The notes below the pieces were generated by a model that worked only from the letters and a program-made list of their open reading frames with translations, searched no databases and was not told where the DNA came from. The position numbers and the translations under genes are program-made. From contig NC_013512.1 of assembly GCF_000024885.1 (NCBI RefSeq), positions 1,302,001 through 1,366,000 of the forward strand: DNA of 64,000 bases. Reading direction: 5' to 3'. This document shows positions 10,432 to 29,480 of the stretch, one piece after another. How positions within the stretch are numbered: the first letter of the stretch is position 1; each line of letters opens with the position of its first letter. Source of the stretch: Sulfurospirillum deleyianum DSM 6946. GTDB taxonomy: Bacteria > Campylobacterota > Campylobacteria > Campylobacterales > Sulfurospirillaceae.

Positions 10432-12123
10432 TTACTCCTTGTACTCAAGCATCATGTTATACAAAGTTCCACCCGCTGGAACCATTGGTAAAACATTTTC
10501 AAAGCGATCAACATTCACATCAATCATACAGACAACATTTGAAGCAACGGCCTCTTCAAAGGCTTTGTCAAACTCTTCTTTGGTTTTAACCCTAAACCCA
10601 CGTCCTCCAAAACTCTCCACCAATTTTACAAAATCAGGTTGCATGGTTAAGTCGGTAGAAGAGTAACGTTTGTCATAAAAGAAAGTTTGCCATTGGCGAA
10701 CCATTCCTAAAAATTGATTATTTAAAATGACATTGATGACAGGTATACGACTCTCAACGGCTGTCATCAGCTCTTGAATGTTCATCAAAATCGAACCATC
10801 CCCTGTAAAATTGACAACCGCTTTATCAGGCATTGCCACTTTGGCACCCAAAGCAGCTGGAAGTCCATACCCCATCGTACCTAAACCTCCACTGGTAAGC
10901 CATTGTCTAGGGTAAGAGAAGGGATAAAACTGTGCCGTCCACATTTGGTGTTGTCCCACATCCGTACAGATAACTGCTTTGTCACCTAAAATCTCTCCTA
11001 CACGCTCAATCGCCCATTGCGGTTTAATGACCTCGTTAGAATCTTCGTATTTTAAAGGATGAATTTCATTGTAGCGATTTAACAGATCTCGCCATGGTTT
11101 ATACTTTTCCTCTTTAACATGCTCTTTGGCTAAAGGCATCATCGCCTCAATAACATTTTTCAAATCCCCAACAATCGGATAATCAATCGGAACAATTTTA
11201 CCGATGCTACTAGGGTCAATATCGACATGAATAATTTTGGCATGTTTTGCAAATTCGCTGAGTTTTCCTGTAACCCTATCATCAAAACGAGCACCAAATG
11301 CAATCATCAAATCAGCTTCACTCATCGCCATATTCGCACTATAACAGCCATGCATTCCAAGCATACCAAGAAGCAGTGGATTATCATGACCCATAACACC
11401 ACGTGCCATTAAAGTTTCAACCGCAGGAATACCACACAAAGCCGCTAATTCTCTAATTTCAGATGCTGCGTCTGAATGAATCGCTCCACCACCAATATAT
11501 AAAACAGGACGTTTTGACGCAACAATCGCCTCAATAGCCTTTTTAATTTGGCGAGGATTGCCTTTGTAGGTTGGCTTATACGTTTGCATTTTAATATCAG
11601 TTGGATAAGCAAAATGTCCCATTTGAGCTGTAACATCTTTAGGAATATCCACATGTACAGGACCCGGTCTGCCACTTCTTGCGATATAAAATGCCTCTTT
11701 TAAAATACGTGGCAAATCTTTAACATGCTTCACCAAATAGTTGTGTTTAACACACGGACGGCTAATACCCACTGCATCAATCTCTTGAAACGCATCTGTT
11801 CCAATCATACTAATAGGAACCTGCCCGCTAATCACCACCATAGGAATCGAATCCATATAGGCTGTTGCTAACCCTGTTACAGCGTTGGTGAAACCAGGAC
11901 CACTGGTCACAAAGGCAACCCCTACTTCCCCACTGGCTCTTGCATAACCATCGGCTGCGTGAATCGCTGCTTGTTCGTGCCTTGTTAAAATATGTTTAAA
12001 ATGGTTTTGTTTATACACTTCATCATAAACATTCATAATCGCACCACCAGGATAGCCAAAGACGACGCTGACGTTCTCCTTCCGTAGTGCTTCAATGACC
12101 ATTTGGGAACCGCTTAACTCCAT
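10432..12123 (-). CDS. ilvB: Acetolactate synthase large (catalytic) subunit
   Basis: This ThDP enzyme condenses two pyruvates, or pyruvate and 2-oxobutyrate, in the first common step of valine, leucine and isoleucine synthesis. The 563-residue protein carries FGYPGGAIMNVYDE at the N-terminus, RHEQAAIHAADGYARASG with the catalytic glutamate, and the ThDP motif GDGSILMNIQEL. The frame is open to 12138, but that upstream ATG lies in the ribosome binding site (AAAGGAGAGG) of the ATG at 12123, which I choose. The nearest -10 box is about 310 bases upstream, implying a long leader that carries 74-bp tandem repeats. Confidence 0.96.
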   Translation of the reverse strand: MELSGSQMVIEALRKENVSVVFGYPGGAIMNVYDEVYKQNHFKHILTRHEQAAIHAADGYARASGEVGVAFVTSGPGFTNAVTGLATAYMDSIPMVVISGQVPISMIGTDAFQEIDAVGISRPCVKHNYLVKHVKDLPRILKEAFYIARSGRPGPVHVDIPKDVTAQMGHFAYPTDIKMQTYKPTYKGNPRQIKKAIEAIVASKRPVLYIGGGAIHSDAASEIRELAALCGIPAVETLMARGVMGHDNPLLLGMLGMHGCYSANMAMSEADLMIAFGARFDDRVTGKLSEFAKHAKIIHVDIDPSSIGKIVPIDYPIVGDLKNVIEAMMPLAKEHVKEEKYKPWRDLLNRYNEIHPLKYEDSNEVIKPQWAIERVGEILGDKAVICTDVGQHQMWTAQFYPFSYPRQWLTSGGLGTMGYGLPAALGAKVAMPDKAVVNFTGDGSILMNIQELMTAVESRIPVINVILNNQFLGMVRQWQTFFYDKRYSSTDLTMQPDFVKLVESFGGRGFRVKTKEEFDKAFEEAVASNVVCMIDVNVDRFENVLPMVPAGGTLYNMMLEYKE

Positions 12124-12159
12124 GACCTCTCCTTTCATATTTTTAATAACGGCTTTTGA

Positions 12160-12334
12160 GCAAAGCTCAAAAACCTACGTTGCACTTGCCGCTAAAGCTT
12201 GCCTCTTGCGAGGCAGAATATTTTACATGTAACGCAAAGCTCAAAAACCTACGTTGCACTTGGCGCTAAAGCTTGCCTCTTACGAGGCAGAATATTTTAC
12301 ATGTAACGCAAAGCTCAAAAACCTACGTTGCACT
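12160..12334. repeat. 74-bp tandem repeat, 2.4 copies
   Basis: Units at 12160-12233 and 12234-12307 differ at two positions; a 27-base partial third copy covers 12308-12334. Each unit opens with GCAAAGCTCAAAAA and CCTACGTTGCACTT. It then contains a short hairpin (GCCTC, 4-base loop, GAGGC) and ends with the palindrome TTTACATGTAAC. The period is not a multiple of three. The array lies in the probable 5' leader of ilvB. Confidence 0.92.
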
Positions 12335-12432
12335 CCAACTTACCAATATCTTTACATGTAAAAGGGACAGAAAGTAAAAAATTTTTGATTATTTACCTTT
12401 TGTAGCATTTACAGTCTGTAAAAAAGTGGGTT

Positions 12433-12438
12433 ATTATA
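12433..12438 (-). promoter_or_regulatory. -10 box, probable ilvBH promoter
   Basis: GCTATAAT on the minus strand, the form seen before other genes here. It would start transcription near 12426 and give ilvB an untranslated leader of about 300 bases. Confidence 0.5.
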
Positions 12439-12494: not shown

Positions 12495-12641
12495 CTTAAA
12501 TTAGACTTCTTGCAAAACACATTTTGTAAGAAGGAAAAGCACTAAGGGTACGTGGGCTTTTGACCAAAGAAAGAACAGTGTTAACGTAGCCCTTAGCGCT
12601 TTGCTTGAAAGGCATGTTAAGAGTTCTGTAAGAACTCTATT
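12495..12641 (-). repeat. Dispersed 3'-end repeat element, copy 1 (after gppA)
   Basis: Read on the minus strand it begins at the gppA stop with a 7-bp hairpin (GAGTTCT, TAC loop, AGAACTC). It continues with GCAAAGCGC, CTACGTTAACACT, AAAGCCCACG and GTGCTTTTCCTTCTT, and ends with a long A/T-rich hairpin (TTCTTACAAAA / TTTTGCAAGAA) and CTAATTTAAG. It aligns end to end with 16992-17152, in the same orientation relative to the preceding gene. It is non-coding and may act as a terminator or RNA element. Confidence 0.85.
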
Positions 12642-13548
12642 AAAAGATTCTAACCTTACCTTGACAATGAGCCAGTGCAACACCTTCACGCAGACCATCA
12701 TCAATAACCACACAACGATCAAAACCCAATTTCCGCATAATCGCTTTGACAATTAAAATTCCCACAACGATCAAATCCCTGCGATTAGTACCTGTGTAAC
12801 GTTCTGCATCTTCATGATTTAACGCAATAAGCTTTGTATACGCTTGATCAAAATCTTTTACATATAATACTTTTCCATTGACTTTCGATGCGTCATAATG
12901 CGCATAATCAAGCCCCTCTAAAAAAGCAGCAACGGTCGTAGGTGTTCCAGCAGTTGTTACTAATTGTAAATAATTCTCTTCAATTCCACCCTCTTTAGGA
13001 AGAAAATCCTCAATGGACTCTACAATACGTGTTACATTTTGTTCAATATCTGTTCGATACTGTTCGGCTACACTGATAATGCCAAAAGGGAAACTTTTTG
13101 TAGTTTTTTCGCCATTTTTACAAAAAATAAGTTCAGTAGAACCACCGCCTAAATCAAATAAAGCATACGTATGCGCAGCAAATCCTTCTCTTTGGAGCGC
13201 ATGCTCAATCGCTAAAGAGGTAAAATACGCCTCTTGTTCGCCTGAAATAATCTCAAAATTAAGCCCAAAACGACGTTTTATCTCTTCTAAAATTTCTTGT
13301 GAATTCAAAGCAACACGCATGGCTTGGGTGGTCACACAAACAGAAGGTTCATGCTTGAAATCAAAAAGAGAAGAAGCCTCTTCGAGCGCTGAAAAAATAG
13401 CTCTTTGCGCCTCTTCACCAATACGCATGGTCGCATGTAACTCTTTAGCCGTACGCACAATCTTCTCGTACGTTCTAACTTTTACACGCTTTTGACACTC
13501 TATTTCAACAATACGTAACGTATTGGAGCCTAAATCGCACGCAATCAT
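12640..13548 (-). CDS. Ppx/GppA-family exopolyphosphatase / pppGpp phosphohydrolase
   Basis: These actin-fold phosphatases hydrolyse polyphosphate or convert pppGpp to ppGpp. The 302-residue product starts MIACDLGSNTLRIVEIE, the phosphate-1 loop, and contains the phosphate-2 motif FDLGGGSTELIF. It ends with RRDLIVVGILIVKAIM and DDGLREGVAL blocks. A longer frame runs to 13695, but its extra 49 residues are unrelated to the family and overlap the upstream small gene. The ATG at 13548 overlaps that gene's TGA. It lacks the C-terminal HD domain of longer GppA proteins. The repeat element begins at its stop codon. Confidence 0.85.
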   Translation of the reverse strand: MIACDLGSNTLRIVEIECQKRVKVRTYEKIVRTAKELHATMRIGEEAQRAIFSALEEASSLFDFKHEPSVCVTTQAMRVALNSQEILEEIKRRFGLNFEIISGEQEAYFTSLAIEHALQREGFAAHTYALFDLGGGSTELIFCKNGEKTTKSFPFGIISVAEQYRTDIEQNVTRIVESIEDFLPKEGGIEENYLQLVTTAGTPTTVAAFLEGLDYAHYDASKVNGKVLYVKDFDQAYTKLIALNHEDAERYTGTNRRDLIVVGILIVKAIMRKLGFDRCVVIDDGLREGVALAHCQGKVRIF

Positions 13549-15830: not shown

Positions 15831-16994
15831 ATGTTTTTTAAATCTCATAGAGCGCAAAAAACATCCTCCTCTTCCATGAATCATACACCGCCTCAAACGT
15901 ATGTTTTTGTATGGCCTTTGTGTACGCGCATTATCCATTGGATTATTGCGCTCTCTTTTTTCTTCTCGTTTATCACATCCTTTTTTTATCCTCTTTTTAA
16001 ATGGCATGTTGCCTTTGGATTTATCTTTGGGATTGTTTTGCTTTTTAGAATTATTTGGGGATTTATCGGACCTTCGTATGCTAAATTTAAAACTTTTAAA
16101 CTCAGTTTTGAGGCTTTAAAATTCTATTTTGTTGAAAAAATTCAAAACCGATGGCGTAAAATCTATGCAGGACACAATGCCGCATCAAGCTGGTTTACGC
16201 TGATTGTCTTAACGCTTGGAAGCTTCATTGTTTTGAGCGGATTTATGTTGCAAGGAGTGCAAGAAGCCAGCGGTCTTTTTGCCTTTTTAAATCCTTCTTA
16301 TTTTTCACACGCTTTCACGCTTTCCTTTTTTCATCAAGCCTTTTCCTACCTGCTTCTTTCCTGTGCCATCGTACATATTTTGGGTGTTTTGATTGAACAG
16401 TTTTACCACAAAACAGAGATGGTTTTTGCCATGATTACGGGATATAAAAAAGCAGAAGGCAAAACAACGCACATCTCAATGCGTTTACAATTTTTTGCCT
16501 ATGGCATTATCTTTTTATGCCTTGCAATCCTTTTACATGTAAAGATAAATCCAACGACAATACTCACACAAAGCCATTTTGAAAATCGTGATTTTAAAGC
16601 AGAACATTTAGCCTATGAGCGCTGTGAAAAATGTCATAAAACCTACCCTCCTTTTATGTTACCCAAAGATTCATGGGTGAGGCTTATGGGAGGTTTAGAG
16701 AACCATTTTGGAGAAAAAATCACAGAACATAACATCACTAAAGCAGACCAAAAAAGCATTGAAGCCTATCTTGTTGCCAACAGTGCAGAACACTCTAGCC
16801 ATAAACTTGCCTTCAACACCCTACACTCTTTAGGTGAACTTCGTCCCCTTTCTATGCGAAAAGTCCCGTACTGGAGAGAGATTCACAAAAATATTCCCAT
16901 GCCAACAGACGTTAAAAATGGTTCTAACTGCTTTGCTTGTCATACCAACTTTGAGTATGGCATTTTAGATAAAGCGCATATCAAGCTCCATTAG
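15831..16994 (+). CDS. Cytochrome b561-type membrane protein fused to a diheme cytochrome c domain
   Basis: The 387-residue protein has an N-terminal di-heme b561/hydrogenase-type membrane domain. Hydrophobic segments fall at about 28-52, 58-80, 118-142, 165-190 and 218-240, with histidines in RIIHWII, FKWHVAFG, FFHQAF and AIVHILGV. A C-terminal periplasmic DHC-like domain follows, with heme motifs CEKCH (from residue 265) and CFACH (from 367). Such proteins pass electrons between the quinone pool and periplasmic cytochromes. It starts 11 bases after the broken cytochrome c. A palindrome at 16532-16543 encodes LHVK just after the last membrane segment. Its TAG stop is the first base triplet of the 3'-end repeat. 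Confidence 0.82.
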   Translation: MFFKSHRAQKTSSSSMNHTPPQTYVFVWPLCTRIIHWIIALSFFFSFITSFFYPLFKWHVAFGFIFGIVLLFRIIWGFIGPSYAKFKTFKLSFEALKFYFVEKIQNRWRKIYAGHNAASSWFTLIVLTLGSFIVLSGFMLQGVQEASGLFAFLNPSYFSHAFTLSFFHQAFSYLLLSCAIVHILGVLIEQFYHKTEMVFAMITGYKKAEGKTTHISMRLQFFAYGIIFLCLAILLHVKINPTTILTQSHFENRDFKAEHLAYERCEKCHKTYPPFMLPKDSWVRLMGGLENHFGEKITEHNITKADQKSIEAYLVANSAEHSSHKLAFNTLHSLGELRPLSMRKVPYWREIHKNIPMPTDVKNGSNCFACHTNFEYGILDKAHIKLH

Positions 16995-17152
16995 AGTTCT
17001 TGCAGAACTCCTGACACGCCTTTAAAGCAAAGCTCAAAACGCAGTTTCTGTGAAAAGGCTACGTTAACACTAGGTTTTTTTTGGCAAAAAGCCCACGCAC
17101 CTTTGGTGCTTTTCCTTCTTGCAAAATTAATTTTGCAAAAAGTCTATTTAAG
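16992..17152 (+). repeat. Dispersed 3'-end repeat element, copy 2 (after the cytochrome b-c gene)
   Basis: It begins with the TAG stop and a 7-bp hairpin (GAGTTCT, TGC loop, AGAACTC). It continues with GCAAAGCTCAAAA, a ~17-base segment absent from copy 1, CTACGTTAACACT, AAAAAGCCCACG, a small hairpin GCACC-TTT-GGTGC, CTTTTCCTTCTT and a perfect 20-base palindrome TTGCAAAATT/AATTTTGCAA, ending CTATTTAAG. Arm differences from copy 1 often keep pairing. The same orientation and position directly after a stop codon suggest a 3'-UTR or terminator role. Confidence 0.85.
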
Positions 17153-29440: not shown

Positions 29441-29480
29441 CTTTACATGTAAAGAGTTTTATCTTTACATGTAAAAAGGT
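29441..29480. terminator. Palindrome-pair terminator between dedA and the DAHP synthase gene
   Basis: Two full TTTACATGTAAA copies (29442-29453 and 29464-29475) separated by 10 bases can pair as a 13-bp stem, followed on the plus strand by a T-rich run (GGTTTT). The site separates convergent genes ending at 29439 and 29486, the same arrangement as at 8700. Confidence 0.65.

Follow-up and report, generated by a model that had tools for sequence, protein, structure and literature searches.

A 74-bp tandem array upstream of ilvB in Sulfurospirillum deleyianum: a probable local duplication in an old and order-wide family of REP-like structured repeats

The window, by which we mean the whole 64,000-nucleotide stretch that was analyzed, covers positions 1302001-1366000 of the 2,306,351-bp single-contig genome of Sulfurospirillum deleyianum DSM 6946. 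On its minus strand lies ilvB, with ilvN and then lpxD downstream and an exopolyphosphatase-like gene upstream (Table 1). Between the ilvB start codon (ATG at 12123) and a minus-strand TATAAT sequence at 12438-12433 lies a tandem array, for which Tandem Repeats Finder reports, at 12160-12334, a period of 74, 2.4 copies and 98% matches without indels. Of the 74 positions of the two full units (12160-12233 and 12234-12307), 2 differ; the remaining 27 bp (12308-12334), a partial unit, show no difference. Each full unit ends in TTTTACATGTAAC, which includes the iterated palindrome TTACATGTAA. Tandem Repeats Finder and the unit comparison thus confirmed the description given in an earlier note, made from the sequence alone, of two nearly identical units and a partial one, each unit ending in the iterated palindrome. 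The same note had placed the array in a presumed ilvB leader, a placement supported by our comparison: since both TATAAT and the Shine-Dalgarno motif GGAGAGG are conserved in the leaders recovered from 21 species of the genus, the array presumably lies within the ilvB 5' UTR.

Table 1. Coordinates (window numbering) of the features discussed in the text
Feature	Position	Strand	Basis
ilvB, acetolactate synthase large subunit	10432..12123	-	NF006319, 1104 bits (cutoff 905)
Shine-Dalgarno region GAAAGGAGAGGTC (GGAGAGG)	12124..12136	-	near-identical in 21 species
Complete three-hairpin copy adjoining ilvB, read towards ilvB	12140..12217	-	covariance model R1, 92.3 bits, E 1.6e-26
Only complete hairpin 3 of the array (GGTTTTTGAGCTTTGCTCAAAAGCC), GTAG before it	12151..12175	-	sequence; helix covaries in relatives
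74-bp tandem array, 2.4 copies	12160..12334	-	Tandem Repeats Finder and unit comparison
Hairpin 1, copy nearest ilvB	12199..12216	-	stem scan and covariation
Second copy; hairpin 3 truncated in loop, GTTACATGTAA instead of right arm	12218..12291	-	R1, 62.3 bits, and sequence
TTACATGTAA palindrome, unit junction	12223..12232	none	sequence
Hairpin 1, second copy	12273..12290	-	stem scan
Third, partial copy: just GTAG and hairpin 3 left arm	12294..12345	-	nhmmer, E 3.2e-5
TTACATGTAA palindrome, second unit junction	12297..12306	none	sequence
TTTACATGTAAA palindrome upstream of array	12351..12362	none	palindrome count
-10 box TATAAT, presumed ilvB promoter	12433..12438	-	in 21/21 leaders recovered
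Type B multi-hairpin repeat, 3' end of exopolyphosphatase-like gene, GTAG and hairpin 3 core	12525..12660	+	
Type B element, 3' end of gene ending at 16994	16992..17123	-	
TTACATGTAA, examples	5586, 12351, 16532, 29442-29475, 59035		

Most of the 74-bp unit corresponds to a single copy of a dispersed three-hairpin element about 78 nt in length, which on the strand read into ilvB has the order TCTGCC, hairpin 1, GGCAAGCTTTAGYG, hairpin 2, ARCGTAG, hairpin 3 and CGT. Its linkers AGCTTTAG and CGTAG are near-invariant and its stems are free to vary. The copy adjoining ilvB reads, towards the gene, TCTGCCTC-GCAA-GAGGC-AAGCTTTAGCGGCAAGTGCAACGTAG-GTTTTTGAGC-TTT-GCTCAAAAGC-CGTTATTAAAAAT and is followed by the ribosome site; hairpin 3 is whole solely in this copy, the others in the array being cut in the loop and joined to GTTACATGTAA. 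When 30 sequences drawn from many genera were aligned without structural guidance (A7), the three hairpins were paired in 94.7% of cells and 13 of 19 pairs showed changes on both sides. The covariation score was 0.527, compared with 0.175 in shuffles (none of 500 reached the observed value), and covariation was lost when partners were slid by one to three columns. Hairpin 3 covaries within the genus too. GTAG stands before it in 94% of 207 copies, and the last G of this tag can pair. A search of the window against Rfam at gathering scores returned no match, nor did five loci carrying element copies at E values up to 1, and the repeat family appears to be uncatalogued.

A covariance model built from 23 copies recovered the element in 24 of 24 genomes of the genus, at 8-90 copies each. 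Related copies do occur elsewhere in the window genome, where the model returned 28 matches at E ≤ 0.001 and 29 at E ≤ 0.01, counts that take in a second type of element, type B (described below), which matches via a common hairpin 3. Order-wide, at least one match was found in 89 of 299 genomes and 24 of 81 genera. The matches listed from a scan with the linker pattern included Sulfurospirillum, Sulfuricurvum, Sulfurimonas, other Campylobacterota assemblies and one "Proteobacteria bacterium" record; one viral contig carried a match, and plasmids had none. By a simple ORF rule, which makes the counts approximate, the 207 distinct genus copies, grouped in 69 locus clusters, are in sense (107), convergent (42), antisense (32) or divergent (11) contexts, and the rest overlap a predicted ORF or are unclassified. 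Sense copies lie at a median of 26 nt past the upstream gene and 19 nt ahead of the downstream start. In other genera, sense and antisense copies are about equal in number (28 versus 31). A first reading, in which the element always occupied sense leaders, was dropped once the contexts had been counted, and copies are distributed like the GTAG REPs and unlike a dedicated leader RNA. Elsewhere too, two or three copies lie next to each other: 19 such arrays were counted in a set of 210 copies, at further genes and in further species, and the array in the window is therefore not exceptional in kind. At two loci of genome G062, L397 and L408, near-identical copies share an identical 30-bp upstream flank and each is followed by a tandem copy, a pair that possibly stems from recent duplication or transposition.

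The history of the array can be read from the 21 ilvB leaders recovered, in which copy number varies among related species, in line with the earlier note's suggestion of a possible hot spot for copy-number change. The leader is empty or lacks the element in eight (G001, G009, G010, G015, G016, G017, G018 and G031), one recognizable copy is present in three (G012, G013 and G035), four hold a relic without hairpin 3 (G004, G006, G008 and G032), and two have a long diverged leader (G002 and G033). In another three (G003, G005 and G014), a complete copy is accompanied by a decayed partial copy 74-75 bp off, and the window genome alone has, besides a partial copy, two that are nearly full. A tree of ilvB and hisG unites G014, G000, G003 and G005 in one clade (support 98/98), to which the partial-plus-complete state is common. 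The element is found at ilvB in two separate clades, which could reflect an ancestral presence followed by several losses, or two gains.

Because the three close relatives hold one copy and a decayed partial one 74-75 bp away, comparison of these sequences suggests a duplication via unequal crossover or slippage. By this comparison, the ilvB 5' UTR would host a copy of a dispersed element between a conserved promoter and a conserved ribosome-binding site, and the lineage of the window genome would beforehand have carried a truncated copy 74-75 bp from a complete one, as in the three relatives. One 74-bp unit would then have been added when these direct repeats underwent unequal crossover or replication slippage. 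The simplest path leads from the partial-plus-complete state through a duplication between the two identical stretches of 27 bp. Hence, we regard it as probable that the array arose when one copy of an intergenic element, dispersed in the Campylobacterales, GTAG-tagged and with three hairpins, was amplified locally.

The earlier note had further suggested that the array could alter leader folding and the expression of branched-chain amino acid genes. If so, it might be a cis-regulatory RNA leader of ilvB, similar to an attenuator or riboswitch, with the number of units tuning the response. Such a role fits with its position in the presumed 5' UTR, with a structure that covariation indicates to be real, with the presence of the element upstream of ilvB in two clades and with a leader that folds more stably than shuffles (z -2.41), even though the latter is expected of a leader made of a hairpin repeat. 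However, the leaders of eight of the 21 species are empty and those of four more carry only a truncated relic, with promoter and ribosome site unchanged, and in the genus the element stands beside unrelated genes in its 69 locus clusters, in both orientations. A stem scan of the ilvB leader found no coding-strand terminator, three-frame translation revealed by eye no obvious leader peptide rich in Val, Leu or Ile, and the lack of an Rfam match likewise speaks against this role. With the transcript start assumed about 7 nt after the -10 box, the predicted probability that the Shine-Dalgarno region is unpaired was 0.80 with one unit fewer, 0.94 as is and 0.84 with one unit more; thus, exposure did not fall with rising unit number, and this folding lends the proposed effect of the units no support. 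We therefore consider a cis-regulatory leader highly improbable, and a role in branched-chain amino acid expression is left unsupported by these comparisons. In these folding models, the element would probably act on ilvB passively, by giving a longer structured leader in which the ribosome site is left exposed. Two TTACATGTAA copies are able to pair around one unit.

A different question is whether the element is kept mainly as an RNA structure in transcripts, as an intercistronic mRNA stabilizer, rather than as mobile DNA. Several results in Sulfurospirillum favor such a role: G-U pairs outnumber A-C mismatches by 108:16 in sense copies, compared with 13:16 in antisense copies (p 0.006 in a permutation over locus clusters), orthologous sites show 29 compensatory changes in sense copies and 12 in antisense copies, and copies between divergent genes are scarce. 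Yet in an independent set from other genera the G-U excess of antisense copies (31:4) is the same as that of sense copies (27:4), which weakened wobble pairs as a proof of RNA-level selection, and strand-biased C-to-T mutation could add to the Sulfurospirillum result. Since the antisense copies of other genera match the sense copies in this respect, the structured strand is the GTAG strand whichever way it is transcribed, and the structure is intrinsic to the element, as would be expected if the element were handled in the form of single-stranded DNA or of an RNA of its own. The compensatory changes at orthologous sites still argue that, at some sites, the structure continues to be maintained once the element has inserted. 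Taken together, we find it rather unlikely that mRNA stabilization is the main reason for the persistence of the element.

With respect to mobility, orthologous sites with and without the element occur at ilvB, hisG and grpE-dnaK, and the hisG copy is missing in G015 and present in its near relatives G016 and G031. The filled and empty sites at hisG, ilvB and dnaK are too diverged to give exact borders for a test of target-site duplication and terminal inverted repeats. In Sulfurospirillum, nonorthologous copies from one genome have a similarity of 0.700, against 0.699 for copies from different genomes, so no recent transposition burst is seen and dispersal in this genus is old. In other genera, copies within an assembly are weakly more alike than copies of different assemblies (0.729 versus 0.700; 19 of 1000 shuffles).

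A REP moved by a RAYT (Y1) transposase would show GTAG followed by a hairpin, as do 94% of the copies, and would be placed intergenically like the GTAG REPs (PMC3733652). Candidate enzymes exist, as the window genome has a single-copy Y1_Tnp gene and Y1_Tnp genes are present in most of the genus genomes searched (PF01797). But at the 15 genus loci examined, the 1.5 kb on either side of the Y1 gene contain no element. Nor did tblastn detect a Y1 homologue when 365 loci, the majority of which surround element copies, were searched (1.78 Mb), and the 86%-complete assembly G001 lacks a Y1_Tnp match despite its 22 copies. Linkage to Y1/RAYT genes, by PF01797 loci and tblastn, hence yielded no element-moving enzyme, and we judge this route of dispersal quite unlikely. 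The Y1_Tnp (RAYT-like) gene of the window genome (L091, genome positions 310039-310365; 252 aa) is neighbored by gyrA-like and lactate/malate dehydrogenase-like genes, named from their translations. It has two TTACATGTAA sites inside, and neither repeat type flanks it. An apparent element match beside it (309761-309787) proved to be merely the common TTACATGTAA palindrome.

The block order GCAAAGC, CTACGTT, CACT, by which the earlier note had joined the tandem units and two elements at the 3' ends of genes into one family of three loci, occurs four times in the window (0 expected), at three tandem positions and at 12604-12577 on the minus strand; the second 3'-end element (17117-16992) has it with a longer gap. 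The relatedness of the units to both 3'-end elements was borne out, and the model of the tandem unit matches the latter at E values down to 6.5e-9. What they have in common is a core of about 40 nt that comprises GTAG, hairpin 3 and CGTG, such that the loci represent two element types with one hairpin module and not a single family. Type B, to which both 3'-end elements belong, is about 130 bp long, forms several hairpins and has about 23 copies in the window genome, at gene ends. It differs from the unit in its other hairpins and in its terminal TAGA hairpins, and it occurs in other families of the order too (L418 and L419). Both of its termini open with TAGA before a hairpin (12525-12660, 16992-17123 and L021-L043), and the termini appear to supply stop codons. 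One type B subfamily has an insertion inside hairpin 3.

The palindrome at the unit ends is a separate matter. Among the palindromic 10-mers of the window, TTACATGTAA leads by a wide margin, with 33 copies in 64 kb, in coding and noncoding sequence; no other TTACNNGTAA is present, and the 12-base form TTTACATGTAAA has 17 copies (0.00 expected). Sampled loci of most Sulfurospirillum genomes hold about 0.4-0.9 copies of TTACATGTAA per kb, with 0.16 for G035 and none for G009 or G011; in other Campylobacterota the density is about 0.05 per kb. As an iterated palindrome it resembles HIP1, and it may be linked to a methyltransferase found in some species only.

In conclusion, the 74-bp array is probably a local duplication in an old, order-wide, REP-like family of structured repeats and not a dedicated ilvB switch. 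Our broader picture is tentative, and we put it at somewhat below even chances: a three-hairpin family spanning the Campylobacterales and absent from Rfam may spread, or once have spread, as single-stranded DNA or RNA via an enzyme, in two modular types with one common GTAG-hairpin, and at some intercistronic sites its structure may be retained for its role in shaping mRNA. These results remove a plausible but unsupported story of ilvB regulation and bring to light a family of structured repeats that extends across an order of sulfur bacteria of environmental importance. Pairs of filled and empty sites at the same gene in related species make a REP-like effect on mRNA testable in natural strains.

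Attenuators of ilv operons and ilvB leader RNA motifs are positioned upstream of ilvB, as is the element. Unlike those attenuators, the array comes with neither an obvious leader peptide nor a coding-strand terminator, and the element occurs at many unrelated genes and is missing from many ilvB leaders of the genus. Like MITEs, it is short, dispersed and hairpin forming, with filled and empty sites, but no parent insertion sequence was found for it, and in contrast to recently mobile MITEs its copies at different sites of one Sulfurospirillum genome resemble one another no more than copies from different genomes do.

The element closely resembles the GTAG-tagged REPs and BIMEs, which are intergenic and lie mostly between codirectional and convergent genes (PMC3733652), and which the text of that paper does not describe for Sulfurospirillum. 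Unlike these REPs, which are 20-40 bp long with a single palindrome, the unit is about 78 nt long with two further hairpins and conserved linkers; it has no linked RAYT gene here, and it is found across the Campylobacterales. In common with them (PMC3733652), it has GTAG next to an imperfect hairpin, intergenic placement, clusters of copies, a preference for sites between codirectional or convergent genes with few between divergent ones and, in type B, ends that can supply stop codons. Like REP and BIME repeats, the element would thus be old and scattered, with one strand selected for hairpins, and would come and go without being bound to any one target gene.
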